A stretch of 36,807 bases of DNA from Candidatus Desulfaltia bathyphila (GTDB taxonomy: Bacteria; Desulfobacterota; Desulfobacteria; Desulfobacterales; ETH-SRB1), in NCBI GenBank assembly GCA_014381545.1, contig JACNLL010000047.1:1-36807 (forward strand). Direction: 5' to 3'. This document shows positions 4,431 to 19,041 of the stretch, one piece after another (within the stretch, counting starts at the first letter, position 1; every line of letters starts with the position of its first letter). The translations under genes and the position numbers were made by a program. The notes beneath the pieces were generated by a model that ran no database searches, was not told the DNA's origin, and saw nothing but the letters and a program-made list of their open reading frames with translations.

Positions 4431-5372
4431 TCATGTTCCGGCCAGAAATTTTTTTATCAGCCGGATAATATCTTCCAATTGCTCAGGCTTTATCCATGCA
4501 ATCCGTAAATCAGCCTTGAACCAGGTCATTTGACGTTTTGCATATCTTCTTGTATCCCGTTTAAGGGTCGACAAGGCCTCATCCCATGAAAGACGACCCT
4601 TTATATAATCAACTGCATGTCGATAACCGATCGATTGCATCGGCTTGAGGTTTTCCGAATATCCCTTGTGAAGAAGCCACTTAACCTCATCTACAAGCCC
4701 TGCATCAATCATTGCCTCAACCCTGGAGTTAATACGATCATACAGGATATCCCTGTTCATATCCAGGCCAATGGTCAAAACTTTAAACGGCTCATCTGTA
4801 AACCTGTGATCTTCATGGTATTCTGATATACTCTTTCCGGTTATTTCATATATTTCAAGAGCCCTTATTATCCTGTATGTGTCATTAGGGTGTATATTTT
4901 CTGCCGCTGTTGGATCACATTTGCTCAGCCGTGTGTGGAGAAAGGCTGCACCATGGGCTGCCGCCTCCCCTTTCAGGCGCTCACGGATATTTACATCCCC
5001 GCTTTTGGCGGGGCCTATAAACAGGCCATATAACAGCGCCTTGATATAAAATCCCGTGCCTCCCGCAACAAATGAAACAGTATCCTGCCTGTCAAGTCTC
5101 ATGATAATTTCACGCGCCATCTTTGCATACATGGCAGCATCAAAGGATTCATCAGGATAAACAATATCGATCATATGGTGTTTGACACGGGCCTGTTCAT
5201 CAGGGGTCGGCTTTGCCGTGCCGATATCCATATATTTGTATATCTGCATTGAATCTGCATTTATAATCTCGCCCTTAAATTCTCCGGCGATTTCAATGGC
5301 CGCAGATGTCTTGCCGGCCCCGGTCGGGCCGCAAATTACAATCACCTTTGGTTTTGGTCTTTCAGAATTCAC
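4431..5372 (-). CDS. miaA: tRNA dimethylallyltransferase
   Basis: P-loop VICGPTGAGKTSAAIEIA, NADSMQIYKYMDIGTAKPT, VAGGTGFYIKALLYGL. Confidence 0.95.
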   Translation of the reverse strand: MNSERPKPKVIVICGPTGAGKTSAAIEIAGEFKGEIINADSMQIYKYMDIGTAKPTPDEQARVKHHMIDIVYPDESFDAAMYAKMAREIIMRLDRQDTVSFVAGGTGFYIKALLYGLFIGPAKSGDVNIRERLKGEAAAHGAAFLHTRLSKCDPTAAENIHPNDTYRIIRALEIYEITGKSISEYHEDHRFTDEPFKVLTIGLDMNRDILYDRINSRVEAMIDAGLVDEVKWLLHKGYSENLKPMQSIGYRHAVDYIKGRLSWDEALSTLKRDTRRYAKRQMTWFKADLRIAWIKPEQLEDIIRLIKKFLAGT

Positions 5373-5535
5373 AGCAAACCTTTTTTACGAACCGTTTTCA
5401 TCACAAATCAGAACTCTTTACATAGCGCGTAACAATAAAATGATCAATTTTTAAAAACAGTTAAATCTTGCAATGCTTAAACTTTTACTAAAACATTTTC
5501 TCTTAACAAAATTTTATGCTATGTACTCTATAAAA

Positions 5536-5621
5536 GTAACCGTTTACGGTTCACGGTTCACAGTTTTTTAATGATTTTTTTGATCAACCACGCCAGGGCG
5601 TGGTTAACCGTGAACAGTTAC
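5536..5621. repeat. Imperfect inverted repeat GTAACCGTTTACGGTTCACGG...AACCGTGAACAGTTAC with nested hairpin
   Basis: Outer arms are near reverse complements. Inner perfect hairpin AACCACGCC-ag-GGCGTGGTT at 5586-5605. Related copies at 28338 and 34866. Confidence 0.75.
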
Positions 5622-5711
5622 CTATAAAAATTTGTCGCAAGAAAGAGACCGGCAGAATTGAATAGTCTGCGGTTCTCTTTTTTTATGCAAACAACAGGAG
5701 TCTTTTTTTGT

Positions 5712-7448
5712 ATGGCTTTTAATGTTTTACTTTATACATCCCTGTTTGTCTTCATTTCCGGCGTTATCTACAAGATCTACACCTGGTTTTCCTGGGAAAT
5801 CGGCATTTCATCCAGAGATATCGACAGGTCCGAAAGACTATCTGCGGCTTTTAAAGGTATGCTGGAGGTAATTTTCAGCGCAAAGATCCTTATCCTGATT
5901 AAGGTATTTATCCTTGATGTAGTGTTTCAAAAAAGGATTCTTAAAGAGGATTTTCTCCGCTGGGCCATGCATATGCTCATATACACAGGTTTTATGTTAT
6001 TACTGCTCATGCATGCGCTTGACGAGCATATAACCGCCTCCCTGTTTAGCGAATATTACTCCACGTTAAATCCATTTTTCTTTCTAAGAAATTTTTTCAG
6101 CATGATGGTAATTGCCGGGCTGACAATCGCTATATACCGGCGCTTTATCCTGAAGGTGCCCCGCCTGAAAACAAACAGCATGGATTATTATGCTATAATC
6201 ATTCTAACTGTCATTATGATTTCCGGTTTTTTTCTTGAAGCAACGAAAATCACCTCTATCTCCGATTTTGAAAGGATGGTGGAAGAATTCTCAGATGTGG
6301 ATGAAAAGAAAGATATCAATGCGCTTGAAAGTCTGTGGGTCCATGCATTTGGTGTTGTTTCCCCGGATCTTAAGGAGCCCTTTGAGGAAAAGCTGCTTGA
6401 ATATGGCCGTGAAATCCACGAAATAAATTGCGCTTCCTGTCATTCTTCTCCAAAATGGGCATTTACAGGATATGCTCTGGCCAATATTCTAAATCCAATA
6501 GCTTTAAGACTTGACAGGGCAAAAGGCTCCAAAATTCTGTGGTATATTCATATACTGGCCTGTTTTTTCGGGCTGGCCTACCTTCCGTTCAGCAAGATGT
6601 TTCATATAATCGCCGGCCCGATAAGTTTGCTTGCCAATGCTGTTATGGAAAAGGATAAACCAGACCCTGCAAACATTGCAACAAGACAGGTGATGGAGCT
6701 GGATGCATGCACCCATTGCGGAACCTGCAGCCTTGGATGCTCCGCTGCAACGGCATTTGATGCTTTGGACAATGAAAATATTCTGCCCTCGGAAAAAATG
6801 GTCTCCCTAAAGAGCTTAATTGCCGGCAAAAAGATGAGTCCTGAAGAGTTAAAGGCCATCCAGGAGGGGGTCTGCCTTTGCACAAATTGTGATCGATGCA
6901 CCGTGGTTTGTCCTGTTGGTATCAATCTTAAGGAATTATGGCTTAACGTGCGGGAAGATTTAATCCAAAAAGGATATCCTGAACCGCTGCTCCTTTCTCC
7001 TTTTTCTTTTGTCAGAGGCTTAAACCGTTATGATATCCCGGCTGATGAGTATTATAAACCTGTTAATGCCGCAAAACAGGCAGTGGCAGGAAAATTTGAC
7101 TCGCTGATTAAGCAAAGCCCTCTGATTCTTCAGGGTGCAGGTATCGAAGAATTTAATCAATTAGCCAAAGACAATACATTTTCATATTGCTTTAGCTGTC
7201 AGAACTGCACCAGTGTATGCCCGGTGGTGTGCAGTTTTGACAAACCTGAAGAGACGCTGGGACTGCTGCCGCATCAAATTATGCGCTGCCTCGGCCTTGG
7301 CCTTATTGAAATGGCATCAGGTGCAAGTATGATCTGGGATTGTTTGACCTGTTATCAATGCCAGGAACACTGTCCACAGAACGTAAATGTCACCGATCTG
7401 TTTTTTGGATTAAAAAATCTTGCAATCAAAAATGTGAAAAAAGCATGA
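5712..7448 (+). CDS. Membrane cytochrome b-like protein (DsrM/NarI-like N-terminus) with CxxCH motif and two tandem HdrC-like 4Fe-4S modules
   Basis: Start chosen at ATG 5712 (MAFNVLLYTS) after AGGAG at about 5696; the track start at 5658 is TTG. About six hydrophobic helices, NCASCH, then CTHCGTCSLGCS / CTNCDRCTVVCPVG / CFSCQNCTSVCPVV / CLTCYQCQEHCPQN. Confidence 0.8.
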   Translation: MAFNVLLYTSLFVFISGVIYKIYTWFSWEIGISSRDIDRSERLSAAFKGMLEVIFSAKILILIKVFILDVVFQKRILKEDFLRWAMHMLIYTGFMLLLLMHALDEHITASLFSEYYSTLNPFFFLRNFFSMMVIAGLTIAIYRRFILKVPRLKTNSMDYYAIIILTVIMISGFFLEATKITSISDFERMVEEFSDVDEKKDINALESLWVHAFGVVSPDLKEPFEEKLLEYGREIHEINCASCHSSPKWAFTGYALANILNPIALRLDRAKGSKILWYIHILACFFGLAYLPFSKMFHIIAGPISLLANAVMEKDKPDPANIATRQVMELDACTHCGTCSLGCSAATAFDALDNENILPSEKMVSLKSLIAGKKMSPEELKAIQEGVCLCTNCDRCTVVCPVGINLKELWLNVREDLIQKGYPEPLLLSPFSFVRGLNRYDIPADEYYKPVNAAKQAVAGKFDSLIKQSPLILQGAGIEEFNQLAKDNTFSYCFSCQNCTSVCPVVCSFDKPEETLGLLPHQIMRCLGLGLIEMASGASMIWDCLTCYQCQEHCPQNVNVTDLFFGLKNLAIKNVKKA

Positions 7449-7461
7449 TGGGGGTCGTTGA

Positions 7462-8328
7462 GTGATCAAATACGCATTATTTTTGGGCTGCAATATACCG
7501 GCAAGAGTAAGCCAGTATGAAGATTCTTCCAGGGCAGTTTTAAAGAATTTGGGTGTAGAGCTGATTGAAATCCGCAGCTTTAACTGTTGTGGTTATCCCC
7601 TGAAAAATATTGACCAAAAAGCATATCTTCTGTCTTCTGCCCAAAACCTGGCATTGGCTGAAAAGCAGGGCCTGAACATACTTACTCTGTGCAAATGCTG
7701 CTTTGGAAGTCTTAAAAAGGCTGAATATCTCCTCAAAGAAGATTTAAATCTACGGCAGGATGTAAACCACACGCTCGCTGATATTGGTTTGAAATATGAG
7801 GGCAATATTAGTGTAAAACATCTTCTTTCGGTACTTTATCATGATGTGGGCATTGATGCCATAAAAAGCAGGTTGTCAGGGTCATATAAAGAGCTCAGGA
7901 TTGCTGTCCATTATGGATGCCATGCCTTGCGTCCAAGCAGGATCACCCGGTTTGACAATCCAATTGCGCCCACGATATTTGATGAGCTCGTGGAGATAAC
8001 CGGCGCCGTATCTGTTGACTGGCCCCAAAAACTGGAATGCTGCGGAGCGCCTTTAACAGGGATAAATAATGATATCTCGATTAATTTGACAAAAAAGAAA
8101 GTATCGGATGCTAAAAAATCAGGCGCCGACTATCTGTGCACAGCCTGTCCATTCTGTCATCTGCAATTCGATTTTCTTCAAAAGAGGATGGTCGAAAATA
8201 ACGGGAACAGCGAACATCTTGCCTCTGTTCTTTATCCTCAACTTCTTGGGCTGTGTATGGGCATCGACAAAGAAACTCTTGGAATCGACATGAATCAACT
8301 TGAGGAACATGAAGATGCCAAAGGATAA
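7462..8328 (+). CDS. hdrB: Heterodisulfide reductase subunit B-like protein (two CCG domains)
   Basis: Both cysteine-rich CCG motifs intact: FLGCN...FNCCGYP...LCKCCFG and HYGCHALRPS...LECCGAPLTG...CTACPFCH. GTG start. Confidence 0.9.
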   Translation: MIKYALFLGCNIPARVSQYEDSSRAVLKNLGVELIEIRSFNCCGYPLKNIDQKAYLLSSAQNLALAEKQGLNILTLCKCCFGSLKKAEYLLKEDLNLRQDVNHTLADIGLKYEGNISVKHLLSVLYHDVGIDAIKSRLSGSYKELRIAVHYGCHALRPSRITRFDNPIAPTIFDELVEITGAVSVDWPQKLECCGAPLTGINNDISINLTKKKVSDAKKSGADYLCTACPFCHLQFDFLQKRMVENNGNSEHLASVLYPQLLGLCMGIDKETLGIDMNQLEEHEDAKG

Positions 8329-11300
8329 AACAGGCTCGGTTATGGTGATAGGCGCCGGAATCACCGGGATGCAGGCAGCATTGGATCTGGCTGATTCCGG
8401 TTATTATGTCTATCTTGTGGAAAGGTCAAGCTCAATCGGCGGAATGATGTCGCAATTAGATAAGACCTTTCCCACCAATGACTGCGCCATGTGTATTATA
8501 TCCCCTAAGCTGGTAGAAGTCGGCCGGCATATCAATATAGAGTTGCTAACCCTTTCTGAGGTAAACGGAATTTCCGGCGCCGAGGGGAATTTTGAGGTCA
8601 GTGTGACACAACATCCACGTTATGTGGATACTGATAAGTGCATTGCGTGCGGCTTGTGTGCCGAGAAGTGTCCCAAAAAAGTGCTTAATGAGTATGATGG
8701 CGGACTGAGTAAGCGCAAGGCGATTTATGTGAAATATCCCCAGGCTGTTCCGTTAAAATACACCATTGATGCAAAGAATTGTATCTACTTTAAAAAGGGA
8801 AAATGCAGAATATGCGAAAAATTCTGCCCCAATGAAGCTATCAATTTTGACGATCAGAAAAAGGAATTGACCCTGAAAGTAGGGGCTGTTGTCCTGGCCG
8901 TGGGAAGCAAGGTCTTTGACCCGGGAGTCCATGATACTTACGGCTACAGGAAATATCCCAATATTGTGACAAGCCTGGAATTTGAGAGGATTCTCTCTGC
9001 CTCAGGACCGTATGGCGGACACCTGGTTCGGCCATCAGATAAAAAAGAGCCCGAAAAAATTGCCTGGCTTCAATGTATAGGATCCAGAGATGAATGTCTC
9101 GGCGCCAAAGGATACTGCTCTGCTGTCTGCTGTACCTACGCCATTAAAGAGGCCATGCTGGCCAAAGAACACAGCAAAGAGCCGCTGGATACAGCCATTT
9201 TTTATATTGATATCCGCACGCATGGAAAAGACTTTGAGAGATATCTTAACCGCGCAAAGGATGAATCAGGAATCCGTTTTATCAAATCGAAAGTTACCGG
9301 CCTTCCACCGGTTAATGGAACAGAGAGGCATCTTATCCGCTATGTAGATGAGGCGGGCAAGAGAGTTGAAGAAGAATTTGATATGGTGGTGCTCTCCGTG
9401 GGCCTGGGCATAACCAGGGAATGTGCGGACCTGGCTCAAAAATTGGGCATCGAACTTGATCGCTATAATTTTGCAGCCACCAGCAGCTTTGAACCTGTCC
9501 GGAGCTCCAGACCGGGCATTTATGTTTGCGGCGCGTTTCAGGCTCCAAAGGATATTCCATCCTCGGTCATAGATTCCAGCGCAGCAGCAGGCGCGGTTGG
9601 GAGTAAATTAGCCGAGTCCAGGTGGACCCTGACAAGCACAAAACATATCCCTGAGGAGATTGATATCCGTGGAGAACCTCCCAGAATCGGCGTTTTTGTC
9701 TGCCGTTGCGGCACAAATATTGCGGGCACTGTTGATATCCCTCCTCTGGTTGAGTTTGCGCAAAGCCTGCCCTGTGTTGTCTATGCAGAAGAAAACATGT
9801 TCAGTTGCTCCCAGGACACCCAGGATAAAATAACCCTGGTTATCAAAGAGCAGCGATTGAATCGGGTGGTTGTCGCGGCTTGCACCCCTAAGACGCATGA
9901 ACCACTTTTTCAGGAGACATTAATCAATGCGGGCATTAATAAATACCTTTTTGAGATGGCTAATATCCGCAACCTGTGCTCCTGGGTACATAAGGATAAT
10001 CCCGAACAAGCTACTGAAAAGGCCAAAGATCTCATTAGAATGGCCGTGGCAAAGGTAGCCCTCTTTGAGCCCCTGACCGAACCTGTTATGCAGATTGATC
10101 AGAAGGCCCTTGTTATTGGTGGAGGCGTCGCAGGTATGGTGGCGGCTAAGAACCTGGCAGACCAGAACTACGTAACATACCTGATTGAAAAGACCGATGC
10201 TCTTGGCGGACAGGCGCGTCATCTGCATGAAACCTGGCGGGGTGAGGACATTCAACAATATTTATCCGGCCTGATAGAAAAAGTACAATCCGATAAAAAC
10301 ATAGATATATTTCTGAATTCCGAGATAGAACATGTGGACGGTTTTGTAGGGAATTTCAAAACAACGATCCAGCACAATGGCGAGAGCAAAGTCCTGGAAC
10401 ACGGGGTAACGATCATTGCGTCCGGCGCCTCGGCGCTCAAGCCGAACCAGTACCTTTACGGCGAAGACCCCCGTGTTGTAACAGGGTTGGAATTTCAGCA
10501 ACGACTAATTGACAACGATCCCTCGTTAGGACAGCTCAACACGGCTGTGTTTATACAATGCGTTGGTTCGCGCATCCCCCAGCGACCTTACTGCTCTAAG
10601 GTCTGCTGCACGCAGTCCATTAAAAGCGCCCTGAAGCTCAAAGAGATCAATCCCAAAATGAATATTTTTGTTCTTTACAGGGATATGCGATCCTATGGGC
10701 TGCGAGAAGATCTTTACCGGAAAGCGCGTTCAAGCGGGATTAACTTTGTCCGCTATGATTTTGACAAGGAGTTTACAGTAGCAGCCAAGCAGGGGGATTT
10801 ACAGGTTGCTTTCAATGATTGCGTGCTCAGGCGTCAGATGGAAATCCGGCCCGACCTTTTGATTCTGGCCTCTGCTATTGTCCCGGAAAAAAAGAATCCA
10901 TTGGCGCAGTTCTATAAAGTGCCGCAGAATGATGACGGTTTTTTCGTGGAAGCGCATGTCAAACTACGGCCTGTTGATTTTGCCACAGACGGCGTGTTCG
11001 TGTGCGGGCTTGCCCATGCCCCGAAAACGATAGATGAATCCATAACACAAGCTCAGGCAGCGGCGGCAAGAGCTGTTACGCTTCTGTCGGCAATAAGCAT
11101 CTCGGTGAGCGGCACAGTAGCTTATGTCAATCCAAACGACTGTAGCAGTTGCGGTGTGTGTGTATCTGTCTGCCCCTATTCTGCGCCGCAATTTAATGAC
11201 AAGAGCGGTAAGGCGGAAATACTGCCCACCCTGTGCAAAGGATGCGGTATATGCGTAGCTTCCTGCCGGTCCGGCGCCATCCATCTGAAGGGATTTGATA

Positions 11301-11350
11301 ACGACCAGATCTTCGCGCAAATCTTTGCGACGAATGAAGCGGTTTTTTAA
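8315..11350 (+). CDS. hdrA: Double-length heterodisulfide reductase subunit A-like flavoprotein
   Basis: Two FAD Rossmann motifs (VMVIGAGITGMQAALDLA, ALVIGGGVAGMVAAKNLA), two QC(I/V)GSR...YCS(A/K)VCC motifs, and ferredoxin motifs internally and at the C-terminus. The 5' end overlaps hdrB; ATG 8309 or 8315 is more plausible than TTG 8300. Confidence 0.9.
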   Translation: MPKDKTGSVMVIGAGITGMQAALDLADSGYYVYLVERSSSIGGMMSQLDKTFPTNDCAMCIISPKLVEVGRHINIELLTLSEVNGISGAEGNFEVSVTQHPRYVDTDKCIACGLCAEKCPKKVLNEYDGGLSKRKAIYVKYPQAVPLKYTIDAKNCIYFKKGKCRICEKFCPNEAINFDDQKKELTLKVGAVVLAVGSKVFDPGVHDTYGYRKYPNIVTSLEFERILSASGPYGGHLVRPSDKKEPEKIAWLQCIGSRDECLGAKGYCSAVCCTYAIKEAMLAKEHSKEPLDTAIFYIDIRTHGKDFERYLNRAKDESGIRFIKSKVTGLPPVNGTERHLIRYVDEAGKRVEEEFDMVVLSVGLGITRECADLAQKLGIELDRYNFAATSSFEPVRSSRPGIYVCGAFQAPKDIPSSVIDSSAAAGAVGSKLAESRWTLTSTKHIPEEIDIRGEPPRIGVFVCRCGTNIAGTVDIPPLVEFAQSLPCVVYAEENMFSCSQDTQDKITLVIKEQRLNRVVVAACTPKTHEPLFQETLINAGINKYLFEMANIRNLCSWVHKDNPEQATEKAKDLIRMAVAKVALFEPLTEPVMQIDQKALVIGGGVAGMVAAKNLADQNYVTYLIEKTDALGGQARHLHETWRGEDIQQYLSGLIEKVQSDKNIDIFLNSEIEHVDGFVGNFKTTIQHNGESKVLEHGVTIIASGASALKPNQYLYGEDPRVVTGLEFQQRLIDNDPSLGQLNTAVFIQCVGSRIPQRPYCSKVCCTQSIKSALKLKEINPKMNIFVLYRDMRSYGLREDLYRKARSSGINFVRYDFDKEFTVAAKQGDLQVAFNDCVLRRQMEIRPDLLILASAIVPEKKNPLAQFYKVPQNDDGFFVEAHVKLRPVDFATDGVFVCGLAHAPKTIDESITQAQAAAARAVTLLSAISISVSGTVAYVNPNDCSSCGVCVSVCPYSAPQFNDKSGKAEILPTLCKGCGICVASCRSGAIHLKGFDNDQIFAQIFATNEAVF

Positions 11351-11364
11351 AGGAGTTTTTCAGG

Positions 11365-11799
11365 ATGTCTGATTGGGAACCAAAAATTGTAGCTTTTTTA
11401 TGTAACTGGTGCAGCTATGGAGCCGCTGACCTTGCAGGTATCAACCGTCTGCAGTACCCAACCAATATCAAGGTCATCAGGATTCCCTGTACCGGACGGA
11501 TGAGCCCCAAGTTTATACTGGCTGCTTTTGGAAAAGGTGCGGACGGTGTTTGGGTATCAGGGTGCCATCCTGGAGACTGCCATTACATGGAAGGTAATTA
11601 TTACGCCCGTAGAAAGTTTACACTCTTTAAAAACCTCATAGAACATATGGGTATTGAGCCTGGCCGTCTCCATTTTTCATGGATCTCCTCGGCGGAGGGA
11701 ACAAGGTTTGCTGAAATCGCAAATAAAGTGACCAAAACAGTAAAGAACTTAGGATCTTCAAGGCATCTTATCAAGAAAATAAATGCTAAGGTAGATTAA
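11365..11799 (+). CDS. MvhD/FlxD-like hydrogenase iron-sulfur subunit
   Basis: FLCNWCSYGAADLAG...IPCTGRM...VSGCHPGDCHYMEGN, a canonical MvhD signature. AAAGGAG RBS upstream. Confidence 0.9.
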   Translation: MSDWEPKIVAFLCNWCSYGAADLAGINRLQYPTNIKVIRIPCTGRMSPKFILAAFGKGADGVWVSGCHPGDCHYMEGNYYARRKFTLFKNLIEHMGIEPGRLHFSWISSAEGTRFAEIANKVTKTVKNLGSSRHLIKKINAKVD

Positions 11800-11800
11800 C

Positions 11801-12745
11801 ATGTTAGGATATATAACCAAAATACGGGAAATATCAGAACGGCTCTTAAAAGAAGGCAAAGTGGATATGGTAATAGGTTTCCGCAAGGGAACCGTGCCGA
11901 TGATGAATGAGCCTTGTGTTGTTAAAAATCCCGAAAATGTAAAAGAGCTTGTGTGGGACAGCAATTGTGGCATCAACCTGGCAAACTATCTGACCGACAG
12001 AAAAGAAAAAATAGGTGTTGTTGCCAAGGGGTGCGATTCACGGAACATTGTCACCCATCTAATTGAAAACAAGATTAAAAGAGACCAACTGTTTATTATC
12101 GGAGTGCCATGCAAGGGGATGATTGACAGACACAAGATTACCTCAATGTTTGCAAAGGAAATAAAAGAGGTTGTAGAGGAGGAAAACAGGATCATTGTAA
12201 GGGGTGATGATTATGAGAAAATTTTTAAAAAAGCCGAGGTGTTGCAGGAAAACTGCGCAATATGCATCCATCGAAACCCTGTTATATACGATGAACTTGC
12301 TGCTGATCTTGTCGAAGAACAAAAGGATGTAGATAGATATGAGGATGTACGCCGAATTGAAGCCATGCCCGCTGAAAAAAAAGGGAATTATTTCGACAAT
12401 CTGCTCTCGGCCTGCATCCGTTGTTATGCATGCAGAAATGCATGCCCCCTTTGTTACTGCCTCACATGCTTTGTGGACGAATCCCGGCCCCAGTGGGTAG
12501 GTAAAAGCATAAACCCAACGGATATAAGAACATTCCATTTCTTAAGGGCCTATCATTGCGCGGGCAGGTGTACTGATTGCGGCGCCTGTGAGCGCGCATG
12601 TCCGATGGGCATAAAGGTAAGGGAATTCACTAAGAAACTGGAAAAAGATTGTTTTGAACTGTATGGCTGGGAGGCAGGTATGTCCTTAGATGAACGTCCG
12701 CCACTTGATACGTACAGACCTGACGATCCGGATTTTATAAAATAA
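11801..12745 (+). CDS. FlxC-like / FrhB-related 4Fe-4S protein
   Basis: GVVAKGCDSRNI, IIGVPCKGM, CAICIHRNP, CIRCYACRNACPLCYC, CTDCGACERACPMGI; begins 1 nt after the MvhD-like gene. Confidence 0.75.
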   Translation: MLGYITKIREISERLLKEGKVDMVIGFRKGTVPMMNEPCVVKNPENVKELVWDSNCGINLANYLTDRKEKIGVVAKGCDSRNIVTHLIENKIKRDQLFIIGVPCKGMIDRHKITSMFAKEIKEVVEEENRIIVRGDDYEKIFKKAEVLQENCAICIHRNPVIYDELAADLVEEQKDVDRYEDVRRIEAMPAEKKGNYFDNLLSACIRCYACRNACPLCYCLTCFVDESRPQWVGKSINPTDIRTFHFLRAYHCAGRCTDCGACERACPMGIKVREFTKKLEKDCFELYGWEAGMSLDERPPLDTYRPDDPDFIK

Positions 12746-12757
12746 AAGACTAAAAAA

Positions 12758-12848
12758 TTAAGGGATTGGGGAATTTAGGGATTTAGGGATTAAAATCAAT
12801 AGGATACCTTCAATTCCTGAATTCCCCAATTCCTGAATCCCTCAATTC
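12758..12848. repeat. Long imperfect inverted repeat of GGGATT/AATCCC-type units inside the redox cluster
   Basis: AATTAAGGGATTGGGGAATTTAGGGATTTAGGGATT versus CAATTCCTGAATTCCCCAATTCCTGAATCCCTCAATTC; arms pair with a few mismatches. Confidence 0.75.
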
Positions 12849-12862
12849 AATAAAGGTATGCT

Positions 12863-13909
12863 ATGAAGGTCGTAAAAATTGACAAGAGGAATTGGGCCGG
12901 CAAACTTGAAAAATTGAAAGAGTCTTATCGATTGTTTGGCCCTGTTAAGGATAATGAATTCCACATCTTTGAAAGGCTCGACAAAGGTGAACTGCCGGAT
13001 TTTAATTATTTCAATACACGCCTTTCACCAAAATCGATTATTTATCCCCAATCTGAAACTATGCTTGAATTTTCTCTGGATAAAAGCAAAGAAAATCATC
13101 ATATATTGAAAGAGACAGATACGGATTGTTCGCCGCGGGCTGTAATCGGCATAAGACCTTGTGATGCAGCAGCTTTTTTATTAGTTAAACGCAACTTTGA
13201 TACTGCTGAGCACAAAGACCCATACTGGGTCAAGGCCTATGAAACAACCACATTTGTCGGGCTTGCATGCAACAACCCGCAAGCAACCTGTTTCTGCACA
13301 AGCGCCGGTTGCGGGCCTTTTTACGAAGAGGGGCTTGACCTGCTTCTTGTCGACATGGAAGATCATTATTTTGCAAAGATAATTACTTCAAAGGGAGAAA
13401 ATCTTTTAGAAGCTGCCGGCTGGAATACCGGGACTGATGCCGACCCTGCCGGAAAACAAATCAAAACCATGAAACAGGAAGCAGAGGCCAAAATAACCTC
13501 TTCTATTACCACTGATAAATTAAAGGACAAAACAACTACAGACCTTTTTGACGCGCCTTTTTGGGAAGAGGTAGCTTTTGCATGCATAAACTGCGGGACC
13601 TGCACATATGTTTGTCCGACATGCTGGTGCTTCGACATTCAGGATGAAGTGAACGGGTACTCAGGAATACGTATGCGGAACTGGGATAGCTGCATGTTTC
13701 CTCTTTTTACTCTCCATGGATCAGGCCACAACCCAAGAAGCACAAACATGCAGAGGGTCAGGCAGCGGTTTATGCACAAGCTGAAATATTATATGGACAA
13801 ATATGACAATGGGATTCAGTGTGTCGGATGCGGTCGATGCATACGTCTCTGTCCGGTAAATATCGATATACGAAAAGTTTGTGATTTGATGAACAGCTAC
13901 GGGGATTGA
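12863..13909 (+). CDS. FlxB-like 4Fe-4S dicluster protein (AsrA/hydrogenase beta-like)
   Basis: GIRPCDAAAFLLVKRNF, CINCGTCTYVCPTCWCFDI, CVGCGRCIRLCPVNIDIRKV. Confidence 0.8.
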   Translation: MKVVKIDKRNWAGKLEKLKESYRLFGPVKDNEFHIFERLDKGELPDFNYFNTRLSPKSIIYPQSETMLEFSLDKSKENHHILKETDTDCSPRAVIGIRPCDAAAFLLVKRNFDTAEHKDPYWVKAYETTTFVGLACNNPQATCFCTSAGCGPFYEEGLDLLLVDMEDHYFAKIITSKGENLLEAAGWNTGTDADPAGKQIKTMKQEAEAKITSSITTDKLKDKTTTDLFDAPFWEEVAFACINCGTCTYVCPTCWCFDIQDEVNGYSGIRMRNWDSCMFPLFTLHGSGHNPRSTNMQRVRQRFMHKLKYYMDKYDNGIQCVGCGRCIRLCPVNIDIRKVCDLMNSYGD

Positions 13910-13938
13910 TAATATTTTAGGTTTTTGAAGATAAATCT

Positions 13939-14139
13939 GCTTCGGGTGTGATCAAATTTAAAACAGGAAACTGTTTGAGCGAATTAGAAATCGTTAAGAA
14001 AGAACCTTGTATAAAATGCCGTTTTTTGCTTAACTATCTGTTTAAACTACCACTATTTCTTTATAGTTATGGCTGGTTATTTCTTTACGATTTCTTATTC
14101 GTGAGTTTTTCATGGTTTAAATTTGATTATACCCGAAGC
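13939..14139. repeat. About 200-bp MITE-like element with about 26-bp terminal inverted repeats
   Basis: Left GCTTCGGGTGTGATCAAATTTAAAAC (13939) versus reverse complement of right end GCTTCGGGTATAATCAAATTTAAACC (right end at 14139): 3 mismatches in 26. Confidence 0.65.
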
Positions 14140-14179
14140 TCGATTGCAAATGATAAAAATCAGTTGCCAGGAGTTCATA

Positions 14180-15025
14180 ATGGTAAATCCATATCTGCCT
14201 TATCCGGTTCGAATCGACGAGATAATAACCGAAACCGAAGATAAAAATCTCAAGACATTCAGGCTGGTTTTTATAAACCCCGACGACGAAGAGAAATTTT
14301 CTTATAAAGCGGGTCAGTTTGCAGAGCTTTCCGTAGCAGGAAAAGGAGAAGTGCCTATAGGAATTGCCTCATCCCCTTCGGAAAAAGGATATCTGATGTT
14401 TACAATCAACAAGGTCGGGCTGGTTACAACCGCCCTCCATTGCATGAAACCGGGAGATATTATGGGTATTCGCGGGCCTCTCGGCAATAGTTATCCCTGG
14501 GATATTCTAAAAGGAAAAAATGTTGTGATAATAGGCGGCGGCTTTGCCTTTACCACGCTTCGCTCCTCTATAGTATATATGCTTGATCCTGTGAATCGCC
14601 CGAATCTCAAAGAAATCCATGTAATATACGGCGCTCGGTCTCCTGGTATGCTTTTATATAAGGATGAACTGGCTGCATGGGAATCACGTGATGATATTAA
14701 TATGCACATTACGGTCGACGGCACAGATGATCCAAACTGGAAATATAATGTCGGGTTTGTGCCGACCGTCACCGAACAGAAAGCGCCCCAGGGAAATGAT
14801 GATACATACGCCATTATTTGCGGCCCGCCGATTATGATAAAATTTACCCAGCCGGTATTAGAAAAGCTCGGCTATTGCCATGACAATATTATTATGTCCC
14901 TTGAAATGCGCATGAAATGCGGTATCGGAATTTGCGGCAGGTGCAATATCGGAAAAGAATTTGTATGCAAAGATGGGCCAATTTTTACGCTGGCCCGGTT
15001 AAACGAAATGCCAAAGGAATATTGA
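14180..15025 (+). CDS. FlxA-like FAD/NAD(P)-binding oxidoreductase with C-terminal [2Fe-2S] motif
   Basis: FAGQF-like FAD module (YKAGQFAELSV), NVVIIGGGFAFTTLR, C-terminal CGIGICGRCNIGKEFVC. ATG at 14180 preceded by CCAGGAG; the track start at 14123 is less likely. Confidence 0.85.
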   Translation: MVNPYLPYPVRIDEIITETEDKNLKTFRLVFINPDDEEKFSYKAGQFAELSVAGKGEVPIGIASSPSEKGYLMFTINKVGLVTTALHCMKPGDIMGIRGPLGNSYPWDILKGKNVVIIGGGFAFTTLRSSIVYMLDPVNRPNLKEIHVIYGARSPGMLLYKDELAAWESRDDINMHITVDGTDDPNWKYNVGFVPTVTEQKAPQGNDDTYAIICGPPIMIKFTQPVLEKLGYCHDNIIMSLEMRMKCGIGICGRCNIGKEFVCKDGPIFTLARLNEMPKEY

Positions 15026-15253
15026 GATGAATTAAACTTTCAAATAAGTTAACTAATGCATGAACAAAAAAGTCCGGTTTTTGGCAGGTACCGCTCCAAG
15101 TATAATTAAATTTAATCATACCTGAAGCTCACTGCAATCGGCTTGTTTTATAAACCTGACAAGTTATTTTCGTCTGCAGTGTCGCGAAGCGGCATAATTT
15201 AGCTTTTTATGAAATGTGTTAAGCGTTTGATATAACAGATAATTACCTCATCT

Positions 15254-15311
15254 TAACACCTAACACTTAACACCTAACACCTGATGAATTAGCCTTTTTA
15301 CGAATTCATCA
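15254..15311. repeat. Tandem heptamer (TAACACY)x4 abutting palindrome TGATGAATT-N12-AATTCATCA
   Basis: TAACACC TAACACT TAACACC TAACACC, then perfect 9-bp arms with a 12-nt spacer. Confidence 0.85.
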
Positions 15312-15321
15312 TGTTTTAATA

Positions 15322-15350
15322 TTGACATTTATTGATTAATAATATATTAA
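15322..15350 (+). promoter_or_regulatory. Sigma70-like promoter upstream of dsrC
   Basis: TTGACA, 17-nt spacer, TATTAA, followed by an AAAGGAGG RBS just before the dsrC ATG. Confidence 0.6.
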
Positions 15351-15427
15351 ACTCTGATAAATTAATACGAGATTAAAGGGCGGAAAGCCATAATGATTTC
15401 ATTTTTTACAAAGGAGGATTTTTTTTA

Positions 15428-15745
15428 ATGGAAACTATTGAATACATGGGTAAAACATTTAGCGTAGATGAGGACGGGTTTATTGATGATTTTAATAACT
15501 GGTGTCCTGAGTGGGAACAGTGGGTAAAAACTGTAGAGGGTATTGAGGAGATAAATGATGAGCACAGGAAGCTTGTCACGGTTCTTCGCGATTATTATGA
15601 AAAAAACGGAATTGCTCCGATGGTTCGGATACTTTCCAAGGTTACAGGATTCAAACTGAAACATATATATGAGCTTTATCCGTCCGGACCAGGCAAAGGA
15701 GCATGTAAGATGGCCGGTCTTCCAAAACCTACAGGATGCGTCTAA
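15428..15745 (+). CDS. dsrC: DsrC/DsvC/TusE family protein with both conserved C-terminal cysteines
   Basis: C-terminal arm GACKMAGLPKPTGCV; AAAGGAGG RBS. Confidence 0.95.
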   Translation: METIEYMGKTFSVDEDGFIDDFNNWCPEWEQWVKTVEGIEEINDEHRKLVTVLRDYYEKNGIAPMVRILSKVTGFKLKHIYELYPSGPGKGACKMAGLPKPTGCV

Positions 15746-15783
15746 GTCAAGAAATCAATGGCCTGTTTAAGACATTTTTAACT

Positions 15784-15817
15784 AAAAAAGCCCTGCATAT
15801 TATGCAGGGCTTTTTTT
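15784..15817 (+). terminator. Rho-independent terminator after dsrC
   Basis: AAAAAAGCCCTGCATATTATGCAGGGCTTTTTTT; perfect 9-bp stem (GCCCTGCAT/ATGCAGGGC), 3-nt loop, T tract. Confidence 0.95.
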
Positions 15818-15835
15818 ATTAAGGTAAAAATAATC

Positions 15836-16291
15836 ATGTCTTCAATGGATGACATAGACAGGGAAATTCTAAACAGGATACAGTCCGACTTTCCGATAAC
15901 CTCCCGCCCCTATCTTGTCGTGGCAAATAATCTGGGTCTTTCCGAAGATGATGTTTTAAAGCGTCTTGCCAGGTTGAAGGAAAAAAGGATTATTAGACGA
16001 ATAGGGGGCAACTTTGTCCCTGAAAAATTAGGATTTGTCAGCACTCTCTGCGCAGCAAAAGTGCCGGAAGATAAAATTGAATTTTTTGCCAAGGAAGTCA
16101 ACGGCTATCCGGGAGTAACTCATAATTATAAGCGGGACAACAGGTATAATATATGGTTTACCTTTATTGCTCCATCCATGGAGGAAATAGAGGAAAATCT
16201 TGCAAAGATCTCCAGCAAAACAGGAATAACAGATATTATCAATCTGCCTGCAACAAAGGTTTTTAAGATAAAGGCTCACTTTGACCTATAG
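15836..16291 (+). CDS. Lrp/AsnC-like siroheme decarboxylase subunit (AhbA/NirD-like)
   Basis: N-terminal HTH (MDDIDREILNRIQSDFPI) and GVTHNYKRDNRYNIWFTFIAPS motif typical of siroheme decarboxylases. Confidence 0.8.
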   Translation: MSSMDDIDREILNRIQSDFPITSRPYLVVANNLGLSEDDVLKRLARLKEKRIIRRIGGNFVPEKLGFVSTLCAAKVPEDKIEFFAKEVNGYPGVTHNYKRDNRYNIWFTFIAPSMEEIEENLAKISSKTGITDIINLPATKVFKIKAHFDL

Positions 16292-16311
16292 CAGGTTGCG
16301 AGAACTAATTA

Positions 16312-17124
16312 ATGAAGGATATAAGGGTTGCGGTTGCTATTTTCAATTCGCCTGTCAACAAAACCGAGCATAATATTGACCGCATGGCCGGGTGGATAAA
16401 GAAAGCAAAGAGAAAAGGCGCCGAAATAATCTGTTTCCCTGAAATGAATGTTACAGGGTACTGTATACATAAGGATATCAATAAGATAGCAGAGCTTGTC
16501 TCCGGCAGGGCGACACAAGACCTTTTACGTTTAGCCGGAGAGGAAAAAATTGTTATTCTTGCGGGTATGGCTGAGAAAGATGTAACCGGCCAGATATTTG
16601 CAAGCCACCTGGTTATTACGCCTGACAGTGTTTCAGGTATATATCGAAAGCTGCATATAGCTCCCCCTGAGAGTGCTTTTTTTACTCCGGGCAACAAAAT
16701 TCCGCTGTTTGAGACAATAGGAATAAAATTTGGGATTCAGCTCTGTTATGATGCGCATTTTCCCGGGCTTTCCGAACATATGGCTATAAATGGAGCAGAA
16801 CTAATCTTCATTCCACATGCATCTCCAAGAGGAACTCCAGACAAGAAATTCATATCATGGATGCGGCATCTTCCTGCAAGGGCTTATGATAACAGCCTTT
16901 TTATTATCGCATGTAACCAGACAGGTAAAAATGGCAAAGGGCTTACTTTCCCGGGCGTCTCAGTGATAATCGGTCCATCCGGCAAAATTATAAAGAAAAG
17001 GATAAGCGGCAGGGAGGGTATAATGGTAGGAGATTTAAAGGCTGATGACTTGGCCAGGGTACGGAATAACAGGATGCATTTTTTCCTTCCAAACAGAAGG
17101 GCGGGTCTGTATAACAGCCTTTAA
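16312..17124 (+). CDS. Carbon-nitrogen hydrolase (nitrilase superfamily)
   Basis: CFPEMNVTGYCIH, RKLHIAPPESAFFTPGN, IQLCYDAHFPGLSEHMA: E-K-C catalytic triad context. Confidence 0.9.
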   Translation: MKDIRVAVAIFNSPVNKTEHNIDRMAGWIKKAKRKGAEIICFPEMNVTGYCIHKDINKIAELVSGRATQDLLRLAGEEKIVILAGMAEKDVTGQIFASHLVITPDSVSGIYRKLHIAPPESAFFTPGNKIPLFETIGIKFGIQLCYDAHFPGLSEHMAINGAELIFIPHASPRGTPDKKFISWMRHLPARAYDNSLFIIACNQTGKNGKGLTFPGVSVIIGPSGKIIKKRISGREGIMVGDLKADDLARVRNNRMHFFLPNRRAGLYNSL

Positions 17125-17130
17125 TTATTC

Positions 17131-17298
17131 TTATTTCCTGCTTCGTACATAATCCAGAAGATATGCTATCCCGACTAAAAAAATGGTAAGACCGGATACA
17201 TGGAAAACATCGGTTTGGGCGTAAAAAAACCGTGTTAAAATAACCGCAAAAACAACTCCGAGTATGGCCCTGATTATAAAAATATGAAATTGATTCAA
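17131..17298 (-). CDS. Small (55 aa) predicted membrane protein, TTG start, not in the ORF track
   Basis: Manual translation MNQFHIFIIRAILGVVFAVILTRFFYAQTDVFHVSGLTIFLVGIAYLLDYVRSRK*; two hydrophobic helices, basic C-terminus; about 35 nt downstream of rmuC on the same strand. Confidence 0.6.
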   Translation of the reverse strand: MNQFHIFIIRAILGVVFAVILTRFFYAQTDVFHVSGLTIFLVGIAYLLDYVRSRK

Positions 17299-17333
17299 AA
17301 TAATTACCTGTAATATAATTTATTGGGTTGTAG

Positions 17334-18611
17334 TCAGGAATCATCCATCGGTATTTCCTGAACTTTTTTGAGGTTGCGTTCAATGACCCTGGTGCGTACC
17401 TCTGCCTGGTCTATGGTGTTGGCGGCTTCCTGAAGCTTCTTTTTTGTTTTAGCCAGCATGCCGCCAAATTTATCAAACTCTGTCTTAACCCTGCCTAAAA
17501 GTTCCCATACTTCACTGGAACGCCTCTCTATCGCAAGAGTTTTAAAACCCATCTGCAGACTGTTAAGCAATGCTGCAAGAGTTGTCGGGCCGGTAACATT
17601 AATTCGGCATTCACGCTGCAAAAAATCGAACAAACCAGGCATGCGCAGCACCTCTGCATACAACCCCTCCACCGGCAAAAACATAATGCCAAAATCGGTT
17701 GTATTGGGAGGGTCCAGATACTTTTCCTTAATTTTCTTTGCTTCGGCCTTAATACACATTTCAAGATTTTTAATTGATCTTTCTACCAGCTCTTTATCCG
17801 CCGCCTCCTGGGCATCAAGCAGACGCTGGTAATCTTCCTGCGGGAATTTAGAGTCAATCGGCAACCAAACTATCTGTTCTTTATCAACCCCTCTGCCCGG
17901 CAATTTAACGGCAAACTCTACTCTGTCATCACTATTCTTTTTGGTCGCCACATTAACTTCATACTGGTCCTGCGTTAAAATCTGTTCGAGAATATTGCCT
18001 AACTGAATTTCGCCCCATGTGCCGCGCGTTTTCACATTTGTCAAAACCTTCTTAAGATCTCCCACGCCTGCAGCCAGGCTTCTCATTTCTCCAATGCCCT
18101 TATACACCTGCTCTAAGCGCTCACTTACCTGTTTAAACGACTCTCCTATACGTGTTTCCAGAGTTAACTGAAGCTTTTCATCAACAACTGCCCGCATCTG
18201 TTCTAATTTCTTGCTGTTATCCTCCTGCAGCTCCCTCAAGCGGCTATCTATAGTTGCGCGCATCGTATCGAACTTTTCTTCATTGATTTTGGTCATATCG
18301 CCCAGCAGCCTTGAAAAGGAATCAAGCTGATCTTTCTGCATACCAGCGTTTTCGGTCATCCTTTTTAGTAAAGAATCGCTGGAATCCTTTAAGGACCCGC
18401 TTAGTTCTTCCCGAGCCTGTTTGGCGTTTGCGCTGCTTTCTTCCCTGTTTCTTGCGATCTCATCCTTTACCATCCGCTCGGTATTATTATAGATATTGCC
18501 CAGGGCATCTATATCGGTCGCAATTTTTTTAAAAACGTCATCCGATTTACGCTTAATAAGCGCCAAAAGAAGGATGAGTAAAACAATAAAAATCAGCAAG
18601 ATGTCTGTCAT
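17334..18611 (-). CDS. rmuC: DNA recombination protein RmuC
   Basis: N-terminal TM, long coiled coil, GTWGEIQLGNILEQILTQDQYEVN...LPIDSKFPQEDYQRLLDA...MFLPVEGLYAEVLR. Confidence 0.93.
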   Translation of the reverse strand: MTDILLIFIVLLILLLALIKRKSDDVFKKIATDIDALGNIYNNTERMVKDEIARNREESSANAKQAREELSGSLKDSSDSLLKRMTENAGMQKDQLDSFSRLLGDMTKINEEKFDTMRATIDSRLRELQEDNSKKLEQMRAVVDEKLQLTLETRIGESFKQVSERLEQVYKGIGEMRSLAAGVGDLKKVLTNVKTRGTWGEIQLGNILEQILTQDQYEVNVATKKNSDDRVEFAVKLPGRGVDKEQIVWLPIDSKFPQEDYQRLLDAQEAADKELVERSIKNLEMCIKAEAKKIKEKYLDPPNTTDFGIMFLPVEGLYAEVLRMPGLFDFLQRECRINVTGPTTLAALLNSLQMGFKTLAIERRSSEVWELLGRVKTEFDKFGGMLAKTKKKLQEAANTIDQAEVRTRVIERNLKKVQEIPMDDS

Positions 18612-18765
18612 AAGCGTTCCCGTGTTAAATAAAGCAACTCACAATAAACTTCATTATCTTTTTTATCAATTATCAATATTAAAGATTTGTGTCAAATTTA
18701 TCTGTTTTTTTCTTTACTTAATTATCAGTTATTGTTATAAATTAATTTTTTTTAGGTGTTAAGTG

Positions 18766-18922
18766 TGATGGCTTCGTAAAAAGTCGAAAAACAGGTCACT
18801 CCCGCGAAAGCGGGAGCCCATAAGTGCTTGAAAGAACTGGATAGCGCTAATGCTTCACTACGTGCCCCGATCAGGTCGAGAATGACAAAAGGGTAGAAAT
18901 TCGACTTTTTAAGAGTTCATCA
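18766..18922. repeat. MITE-like repeat element, copy 1 (about 157 bp, both ends present)
   Basis: TGATGGCTTCGTAAAAAGTCGAA ... TTCGACTTTTTAAGAGTTCATCA; contains internal hairpin ACTCCCGCGAAAGCGGGAG. Confidence 0.75.
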
Positions 18923-19041
18923 GTGTTAACCATTTGATAAAATAAATAGTTTCTTTAAAGCCTTATGAATTAGATTTTCATCAACAGTTGGAAAGTAAGC
19001 AAAATCGTCTTTATATAAAAGGTTACCGGAGGATTATAAAA

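Follow-up and report, generated by a model that had tools for sequence, protein, structure and literature searches.

A putative membrane-anchored variant of FlxABCD-HdrABC encoded beside dsrC in Candidatus Desulfaltia bathyphila

Organization of the locus

The window analysed here, a stretch of 36,807 nucleotides, is contig JACNLL010000047.1 (C71) of the Candidatus Desulfaltia bathyphila assembly GCA_014381545.1, a 2.07-Mb genome that is 97 % complete. Between positions 5712 and 15745, family searches identify on the + strand, in this order, genes for a cytochrome b/c-HdrC-HdrC fusion protein, HdrB, a double HdrA, FlxD, FlxC, FlxB, FlxA and DsrC. An earlier note, made from the sequence alone, had given the same inventory, and every gene that it named was recovered; its description of consecutive same-strand genes holds for order and strand but not for tight packing throughout, as a repeat resembling a miniature inverted-repeat transposable element (MITE) splits flxB from flxA. 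The nearest named kin of the fusion protein, at 88–90 % identity, are found in Desulfobacterales metagenome bins, those of Eth-SRB1 and Ca. Desulfaltia. Since the genome elsewhere encodes AprA-QmoABC, DsrK (contig C16), TmcB, HmcF, Rnf and carbon monoxide dehydrogenase, and has one dsrC, the host, an uncultured bacterium, is very probably a sulfate reducer.

The cytochrome-HdrC fusion protein

The first gene of the cluster (5712–7448) starts at an ATG at 5712 that is in register with its relatives, and profile matches, alignment and topology together predict a protein with two b hemes and one periplasmic c heme. The product matches NarI (PF02665), two dicluster 4Fe-4S modules (Fer4_8), HdrC and the HdrC part of QmoC. 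It has five hydrophobic segments, and of its loops those on the same side as the HdrC modules are the more positively charged, a positive-inside pattern. A CxxCH motif at residues 241–245 (numbered on the 579-residue alignment row) lies in the loop between segments 4 and 5, which is net negative. Positively charged loops tend to stay inside and c hemes are attached in the periplasm; because this loop is net negative and the positive loops lie on the HdrC side, it should be periplasmic.

In an alignment of 23 sequences, reaching down to 41 % identity, the histidines H88, H102, H281 and H299, the heme c motif C241xxC244H245 and all sixteen cysteines of four CxxCxxCxxxC 4Fe-4S motifs are invariant. 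The last two of these histidines are spaced by 18, as in Escherichia coli NarI. The second HdrC module aligns with the HdrC of solved Hdr complexes and the first is also SdhB-like, and an order running from membrane to relay to HdrC to HdrB is therefore a natural one. An AlphaFold (AF2) model of the protein is of moderate quality (pLDDT 75, pTM 0.67); its closest solved fold is that of Mycobacterium smegmatis EtfD (PDB 9ojn; E-value 6e-5, TM 0.41), and its C-terminal module matches HdrC chains in the PDB. The fusion was matched in 44 of 297 genomes of the phylum, a few of these matches being partial, and since it thus represents a conserved family with invariant heme and Fe-S ligands, the earlier suggestion of a membrane-linked Hdr is well founded.

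HdrB and the double HdrA

The HdrB gene (7462–8328) encodes two CCG domains and is predicted to provide the disulfide-active subunit. Both CCG motifs are intact and the protein matches the family model TIGR03288 (264 bits, 1.2e-78), although the score is under the strict equivalog cut-off of 345; it also aligns at full length with the HdrB of solved Hdr complexes (E-value 1e-65). It is the sole full-length HdrB-family gene of the genome, and the same is true of G072, of Eth-SRB1 and of the genome that carries locus L084 (G, L and C are our handles for genomes, loci and contigs). As there is no other full-length HdrB, a Flx-Hdr enzyme that acts on DsrC through HdrB would have to use this one, together with its fused HdrC, and we regard this as the best single argument for placing Flx, HdrA and HdrB in one complex with the cytochrome in this lineage. 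The proposal that the fusion replaces HdrC is fair for the window genome in so far as it has only one HdrB-family gene, but soluble HdrC-like genes are present elsewhere in the genome.

The HdrA gene (8315–11350, within an open reading frame that opens at a TTG at 8300) encodes two modules with FAD motifs at residues 18 and 607. Three blocks align with the HdrA of 5odc: residues 20–384 correspond to the flavin domain with its inserted ferredoxin domain (module 1), and in module 2 residues 459–614 correspond to the N-terminal domain and residues 874–1008 to the C-terminal ferredoxin domain. The lysine equivalent to Lys409 of 5odc HdrA, the near-flavin residue discussed for bifurcation, is kept in both modules (K283 and K775).

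The Flx subunits and DsrC

The product of flxD (11365–11799) is an MvhD/FlpD-type 2Fe-2S protein (PF02662, 2e-54, 183 bits) with cysteines at residues 13, 16, 42, 67 and 72. It is followed by the gene for FlxC (11801–12745), an FdhB-like Fe-S subunit that matches formate dehydrogenase beta at 1.8e-25 (residues 202–305), the likeness being to the C-terminal part of FdhB. FlxB (12863–13909) is an Fe-S subunit resembling AsrA and the beta subunit of sulfhydrogenase 1 (5e-44), and FlxA (14180–15025) is the FAD/NAD(P)-binding and 2Fe-2S reductase subunit, similar to AsrB and to the gamma subunit of sulfhydrogenase 1 (2e-54), an NAD(P)-linked enzyme.

The dsrC gene (15428–15745) is the only one in the genome. 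Its product has both redox cysteines, Cys93 and Cys104, and ends in ...KPTGCV with the last cysteine penultimate, as in redox-active DsrC of the sulfite-reducing type. A gap of 402 bp lies upstream of the gene, and a predicted Rho-independent terminator, an inverted repeat (15778–15822, + strand; z −6.3), lies 3′ of it. The earlier note had given dsrC its own promoter, a call that we have dropped as unproven: the region holds 28 promoter-like sites against 23.5 ± 5.3 expected, which is no better than chance.

Conservation of the gene order

HdrB is encoded directly 3′ of the fusion in nearly all sufficiently long loci, with about seven of some 118 lacking it, and the fusion-HdrB pair is thus the conserved core. 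The complete order fusion-HdrB-HdrAA-FlxD-C-B-A-dsrC is also present in loci L084, L099, L108, L122, L126, L141 and L150 of the named collection. At the other end of the cluster, dsrC lies directly downstream of flxA on the same strand in eight of ten flxA-bearing genomes sampled in the order (G000, G072, G105, G134, G210, G232, G254 and G295), with gaps of 142–417 bp (median 230, n=17 loci); outside the order, no such adjacency was seen among the matches listed in the phylum sample. The Eth-SRB1 locus is split in the middle of the flx genes (L162 and L166), so that fusion-HdrB-HdrAA-FlxD-FlxC lies on one contig and FlxB-FlxA-dsrC-ahbA-hydrolase on another, and the dsrC-proximal part has stayed together. 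In G304 the flx set linked to the fusion has no dsrC in reach (L091), and a second flx set elsewhere carries it.

We note that dsrC is single copy in most genomes tested and that G301, the genome of locus L126, has two copies. The one beside flx, on contig C26, contains an in-frame stop codon and has an altered C-terminal region (...RRGACKMAGLTKPTGCV), and is perhaps decaying; the copy on contig C54 looks normal.

Adjacency of flxA and dsrC across several families of the order rules out a chance neighbourhood. The earlier note had described the link to dsrC as one of neighbourhood only; the conserved order makes the association much stronger than a neighbourhood in one genome, and it agrees with a report that, in D. 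vulgaris, DsrC and FlxABCD-HdrABC interact directly (Ferreira 2023, cited in PMC10553843).

Exchange of modules between the fusion and Flx

Fusion and Flx are found with different partners in many genomes. In G295, G232 and G254 (the first read in detail, the second in part and the third by size and position) flxDCBA-dsrC is preceded by a short HdrA whose frame contains a TGA, then NuoE, NuoF and a NuoG/HdrAA fusion, without the cytochrome fusion or HdrB; in G210 it is preceded by HdrAA alone, and in G105 the gene in front encodes an HdrA of 1411 residues that carries a GltD-like insertion. G070, G184, G273 and G231 have flxDCBA without dsrC, and the HdrA proteins that precede it carry an insertion where that of G105 does. 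Conversely, fusion-HdrB is followed by HdrA-NuoE-NuoF-NuoG/HdrAA in L089, L093, L096, L098, L103 and L153, by MvhD, FdhB-like and molybdopterin genes of a formate-dehydrogenase-like kind in L124 and probably its relatives, and by no HdrA at all in L047, L054, L056-L058, L061-L063, L066 and others. In a FastTree tree of 111 fusion proteins, which is approximate and has several long branches, partner types cluster, yet at least 16 changes occur among the rows with known partners.

This swapping of partner types across loci and tree favours a membrane module whose input modules can be exchanged, and it rules out an obligate fusion-Flx complex. The synteny check that the earlier note had proposed thus has a divided outcome, fusion, Flx and dsrC being co-conserved in some lineages without fusion and Flx being obligate partners. 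A wider proposal is that fusion and HdrB would form a general membrane platform for differing HdrA-based inputs (Flx with NAD(P)H, NuoEF with NADH, and a formate-dehydrogenase-like module with formate) and would directly couple flavin-based bifurcation to the pool of quinones or periplasmic cytochromes, and so to the membrane potential; we offer this tentatively, as a possibility less likely than not.

Judged from its domains, the HdrA-NuoE-NuoF-NuoG/HdrAA segment is a NuoEF-type NADH input module on HdrA. The in-frame TGA of its HdrA, within ...DC(S/A)MUII..., is probably a selenocysteine codon. Two loci illustrate the arrangement: L093, with these genes at 12753–18937 and fusion and HdrB upstream, and L167, with them at 5229–11385 and flxDCBA-dsrC downstream. 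A 3-kb break inside HdrA in other lineages was at one point taken for a search artefact, an explanation that was dropped once the break proved to hold the TGA followed by NuoE, NuoF and NuoG/HdrAA. Loci L067 and L068 have the fusion in split form: their double HdrC has no cytochrome domain attached, a cytochrome gene of distant similarity lies immediately upstream of it, and HdrB follows.

Comparison with known complexes

The genes for FlxA-D and for HdrA, HdrB and HdrC known from FlxABCD-HdrABC of D. vulgaris and its relatives are all present in the window. That system is described with NADH as input, ferredoxin and DsrC as the proposed output and a reported interaction with DsrC (PMC10553843, PMC5539420). 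The known complex, as described, is soluble and cytochrome-free with a free HdrC. The window instead encodes a doubled HdrC joined to a five-segment cytochrome b/c, together with a double HdrA, and has dsrC adjoining flxA. By its gene content, the set is therefore to be classed as a membrane variant and not as the standard FlxABCD-HdrABC.

QmoABC likewise places HdrA- and MvhD-type subunits on a membrane HdrC-cytochrome b fusion. QmoC (contig C36 of this genome), however, presumably has HdrC first and cytochrome b last with no second HdrC, and QmoABC, which serves AprAB, lacks both HdrB and Flx. With the QmoC model the fusion reaches 67 bits, where the cut-off is 300, and the match is limited to the HdrC part; and the genome has a separate aprA-qmoABC locus. 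HdrDE, DsrMK and Tmc combine a cytochrome b, an HdrC-type relay and a CCG catalytic protein, but there the CCG and HdrC parts are fused (HdrD, DsrK, TmcB), the cytochrome b is a separate chain and HdrA and Flx are lacking; the domain order of the window proteins is different, and DsrK is encoded elsewhere. The membrane FeS oxidoreductase EtfD (EMO) also has a cytochrome b followed by 4Fe-4S modules. EtfD runs on into CCG domains of its own and works with ETF, whereas in the window HdrB supplies the CCG part as a distinct chain and HdrA-Flx is the donor module.

The MetVF-HdrCBA-MvhD complex of Sporomusa ovata has a similar HdrABC-type module; part of it was found at the membrane and a link to quinone has been proposed, with its membrane-integral partner not identified (PMC9430772). 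Unlike that system, the window cluster encodes a candidate anchor. For HotSeep-1, a different HdrA plus a heme c/CCG protein is described, and Flx-Hdr operons are mentioned for related clades with a supplementary figure (Murali et al. 2023, PMC10553843). In full-text literature searches, of incomplete coverage such that novelty is not certain, an HdrC fused to a cytochrome and paired with Flx was nowhere described. Among the known complexes Flx-Hdr, Qmo, HdrDE and DsrMK, none has the composition seen here; the best reading of the domain content is of a complex intermediate between Flx-Hdr, Qmo and HdrDE/DsrMK.

Proposed function

The composition, cofactor ligands, predicted topology and conserved gene order, all read directly from the sequence, suggest that the locus encodes a membrane-anchored FlxABCD-HdrABC variant of modular build that would link NAD(P)H, ferredoxin and DsrC with the quinone or periplasmic cytochrome pool, a reading to which we give a probability of roughly 0.6. 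By analogy with characterized relatives, such an enzyme would bifurcate electrons through HdrA flavin chemistry, with NAD(P)H oxidized at FlxA, ferredoxin exchanged and DsrC as the substrate of HdrB. FlxA would accept hydride from NAD(P)H, and electrons would reach the double HdrA and its flavins by way of FlxB, FlxC and FlxD. HdrA in turn would trade electrons both with ferredoxin and with the relay formed by HdrC. The second HdrC module would supply HdrB, at whose two CCG sites a disulfide-type substrate, most probably DsrC, would be reduced or oxidised. The two b hemes, along with the first HdrC module, would tie the relay to the membrane, the c heme being an exit or entrance for periplasmic cytochromes.

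The fourth partner may be a quinone or a periplasmic cytochrome c, and electrons may flow in either direction. Standard potentials are −320 mV for NADH, −74 mV for menaquinone and −400 to −500 mV for ferredoxin, and on these values NADH-driven reduction of ferredoxin and menaquinone is feasible. The complex may serve energy conservation or reverse electron transport. If charge crosses the membrane, then with the c heme outside and the Fe-S relay inside, inward flow from quinol or cytochrome to DsrC would conserve energy; electrons that leave NADH for a quinone or cytochrome would move outward with the pull of the membrane potential, and this outward flow could help drive ferredoxin reduction. 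Reverse transport from the periplasm to NADH would be uphill and against the field, and is therefore the least probable direction, unless ferredoxin confurcation pays for it.

Several observations weigh against a single complex acting on DsrC. The model of the fusion is only moderate (pLDDT 75, pTM 0.67). The separation of fusion and Flx in many genomes suggests that the subunits may take part in more than one complex, and dsrC, with its own terminator and the 402-bp gap, is probably transcribed separately. The genome also has DsrMKJOP, with which DsrC has an established partnership at the membrane, and DsrC could therefore be reduced without the window complex. Absence of DsrMKJOP had been suggested by a CCG search that missed DsrK, but the DsrK model finds the gene, in 12 of 12 genomes tested.

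The locus might instead encode two machines, with fusion and HdrB acting as an HdrDE/DsrMK-like quinol (or cytochrome c):disulfide oxidoreductase and HdrAA-FlxABCD as an NADH-linked enzyme in the soluble fraction, which would either just borrow HdrB or act on DsrC by itself. The many loci with fusion-HdrB and no HdrA fit this division, as does G210, where HdrAA-FlxDCBA-dsrC has neither fusion nor HdrB upstream. Fusion, HdrB and HdrA are, however, consecutive in the window lineage and several others, and with no second full-length HdrB a disulfide-active Flx-Hdr must use the window HdrB, whose natural Fe-S partner HdrC is fused; we consider two machines unlikely here, though well worth keeping in mind. 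Less probable still is a quinone- or cytochrome-linked NADH:ferredoxin bifurcating enzyme without DsrC, in which HdrB would be a relay or act on another disulfide and dsrC would be a neighbour through sulfite-reduction housekeeping, the siroheme gene ahbA being there too. It would account for fusion-HdrB-HdrAA where dsrC sits elsewhere (G033/L119) or is not found (G010, G012), and for ahbA beside dsrC in many genomes, but not so readily for a flxA-dsrC adjacency that survives the rearrangement in Eth-SRB1 and the second flx copy in G304, and the literature ties Flx-Hdr to DsrC (PMC10553843, PMC5539420).

That the cluster is an ordinary Desulfovibrio-type Flx-Hdr, with a degenerate cytochrome domain as a passive membrane anchor, seems to us very improbable: forms without the fusion do exist, as the double HdrC of L067 and L068 demonstrates, but the heme b and heme c ligands are invariant in the 23 relatives, which is not expected of a passive anchor.

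Flanking genes and repeats

The repeat between flxB and flxA (13939–14139, in the gap 13910–14179) is MITE-like, about 201 bp long with 32-nt terminal inverted repeats, and lies outside the proposed complex. It has 26 matches in the genome, about 13 of them near full length, at 65–100 % identity; in L084 and similar relatives the flxB-flxA gap is merely short. A palindrome at 15093–15128 in the flxA-dsrC gap has end motifs resembling those of the MITE and is possibly a remnant.

Downstream of dsrC lie ahbA (15836–16291, + strand), encoding the alpha subunit of siroheme decarboxylase (NF040708, above cut-off), and a carbon-nitrogen hydrolase gene (16312–17124, + strand), a conserved neighbour and a conserved third neighbour respectively; in relatives the flxA-dsrC block often continues into both in that order. 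As ahbA is found beside the only dsrC in many genomes, siroheme or heme synthesis is possibly linked to sulfite reduction. To the left, a divergent gene named from its sequence as a miaA-like tRNA dimethylallyltransferase (4431–5372, − strand) is the conserved border of the locus in several relatives.

Significance

The locus bears on how anaerobic sulfate reducers, including kin of the syntrophic partners of alkane-oxidising archaea, link membrane electrons with NAD(P)H, ferredoxin and DsrC. HdrABC-type enzymes such as that of Sporomusa have been observed at membranes with no anchor identified (PMC9430772); the locus described here offers a genetically encoded anchor with b and c hemes beside the only dsrC of its genome, and hence a testable complex. 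A single complex may thus connect NADH and sulfite reduction with the electron pool of the membrane.

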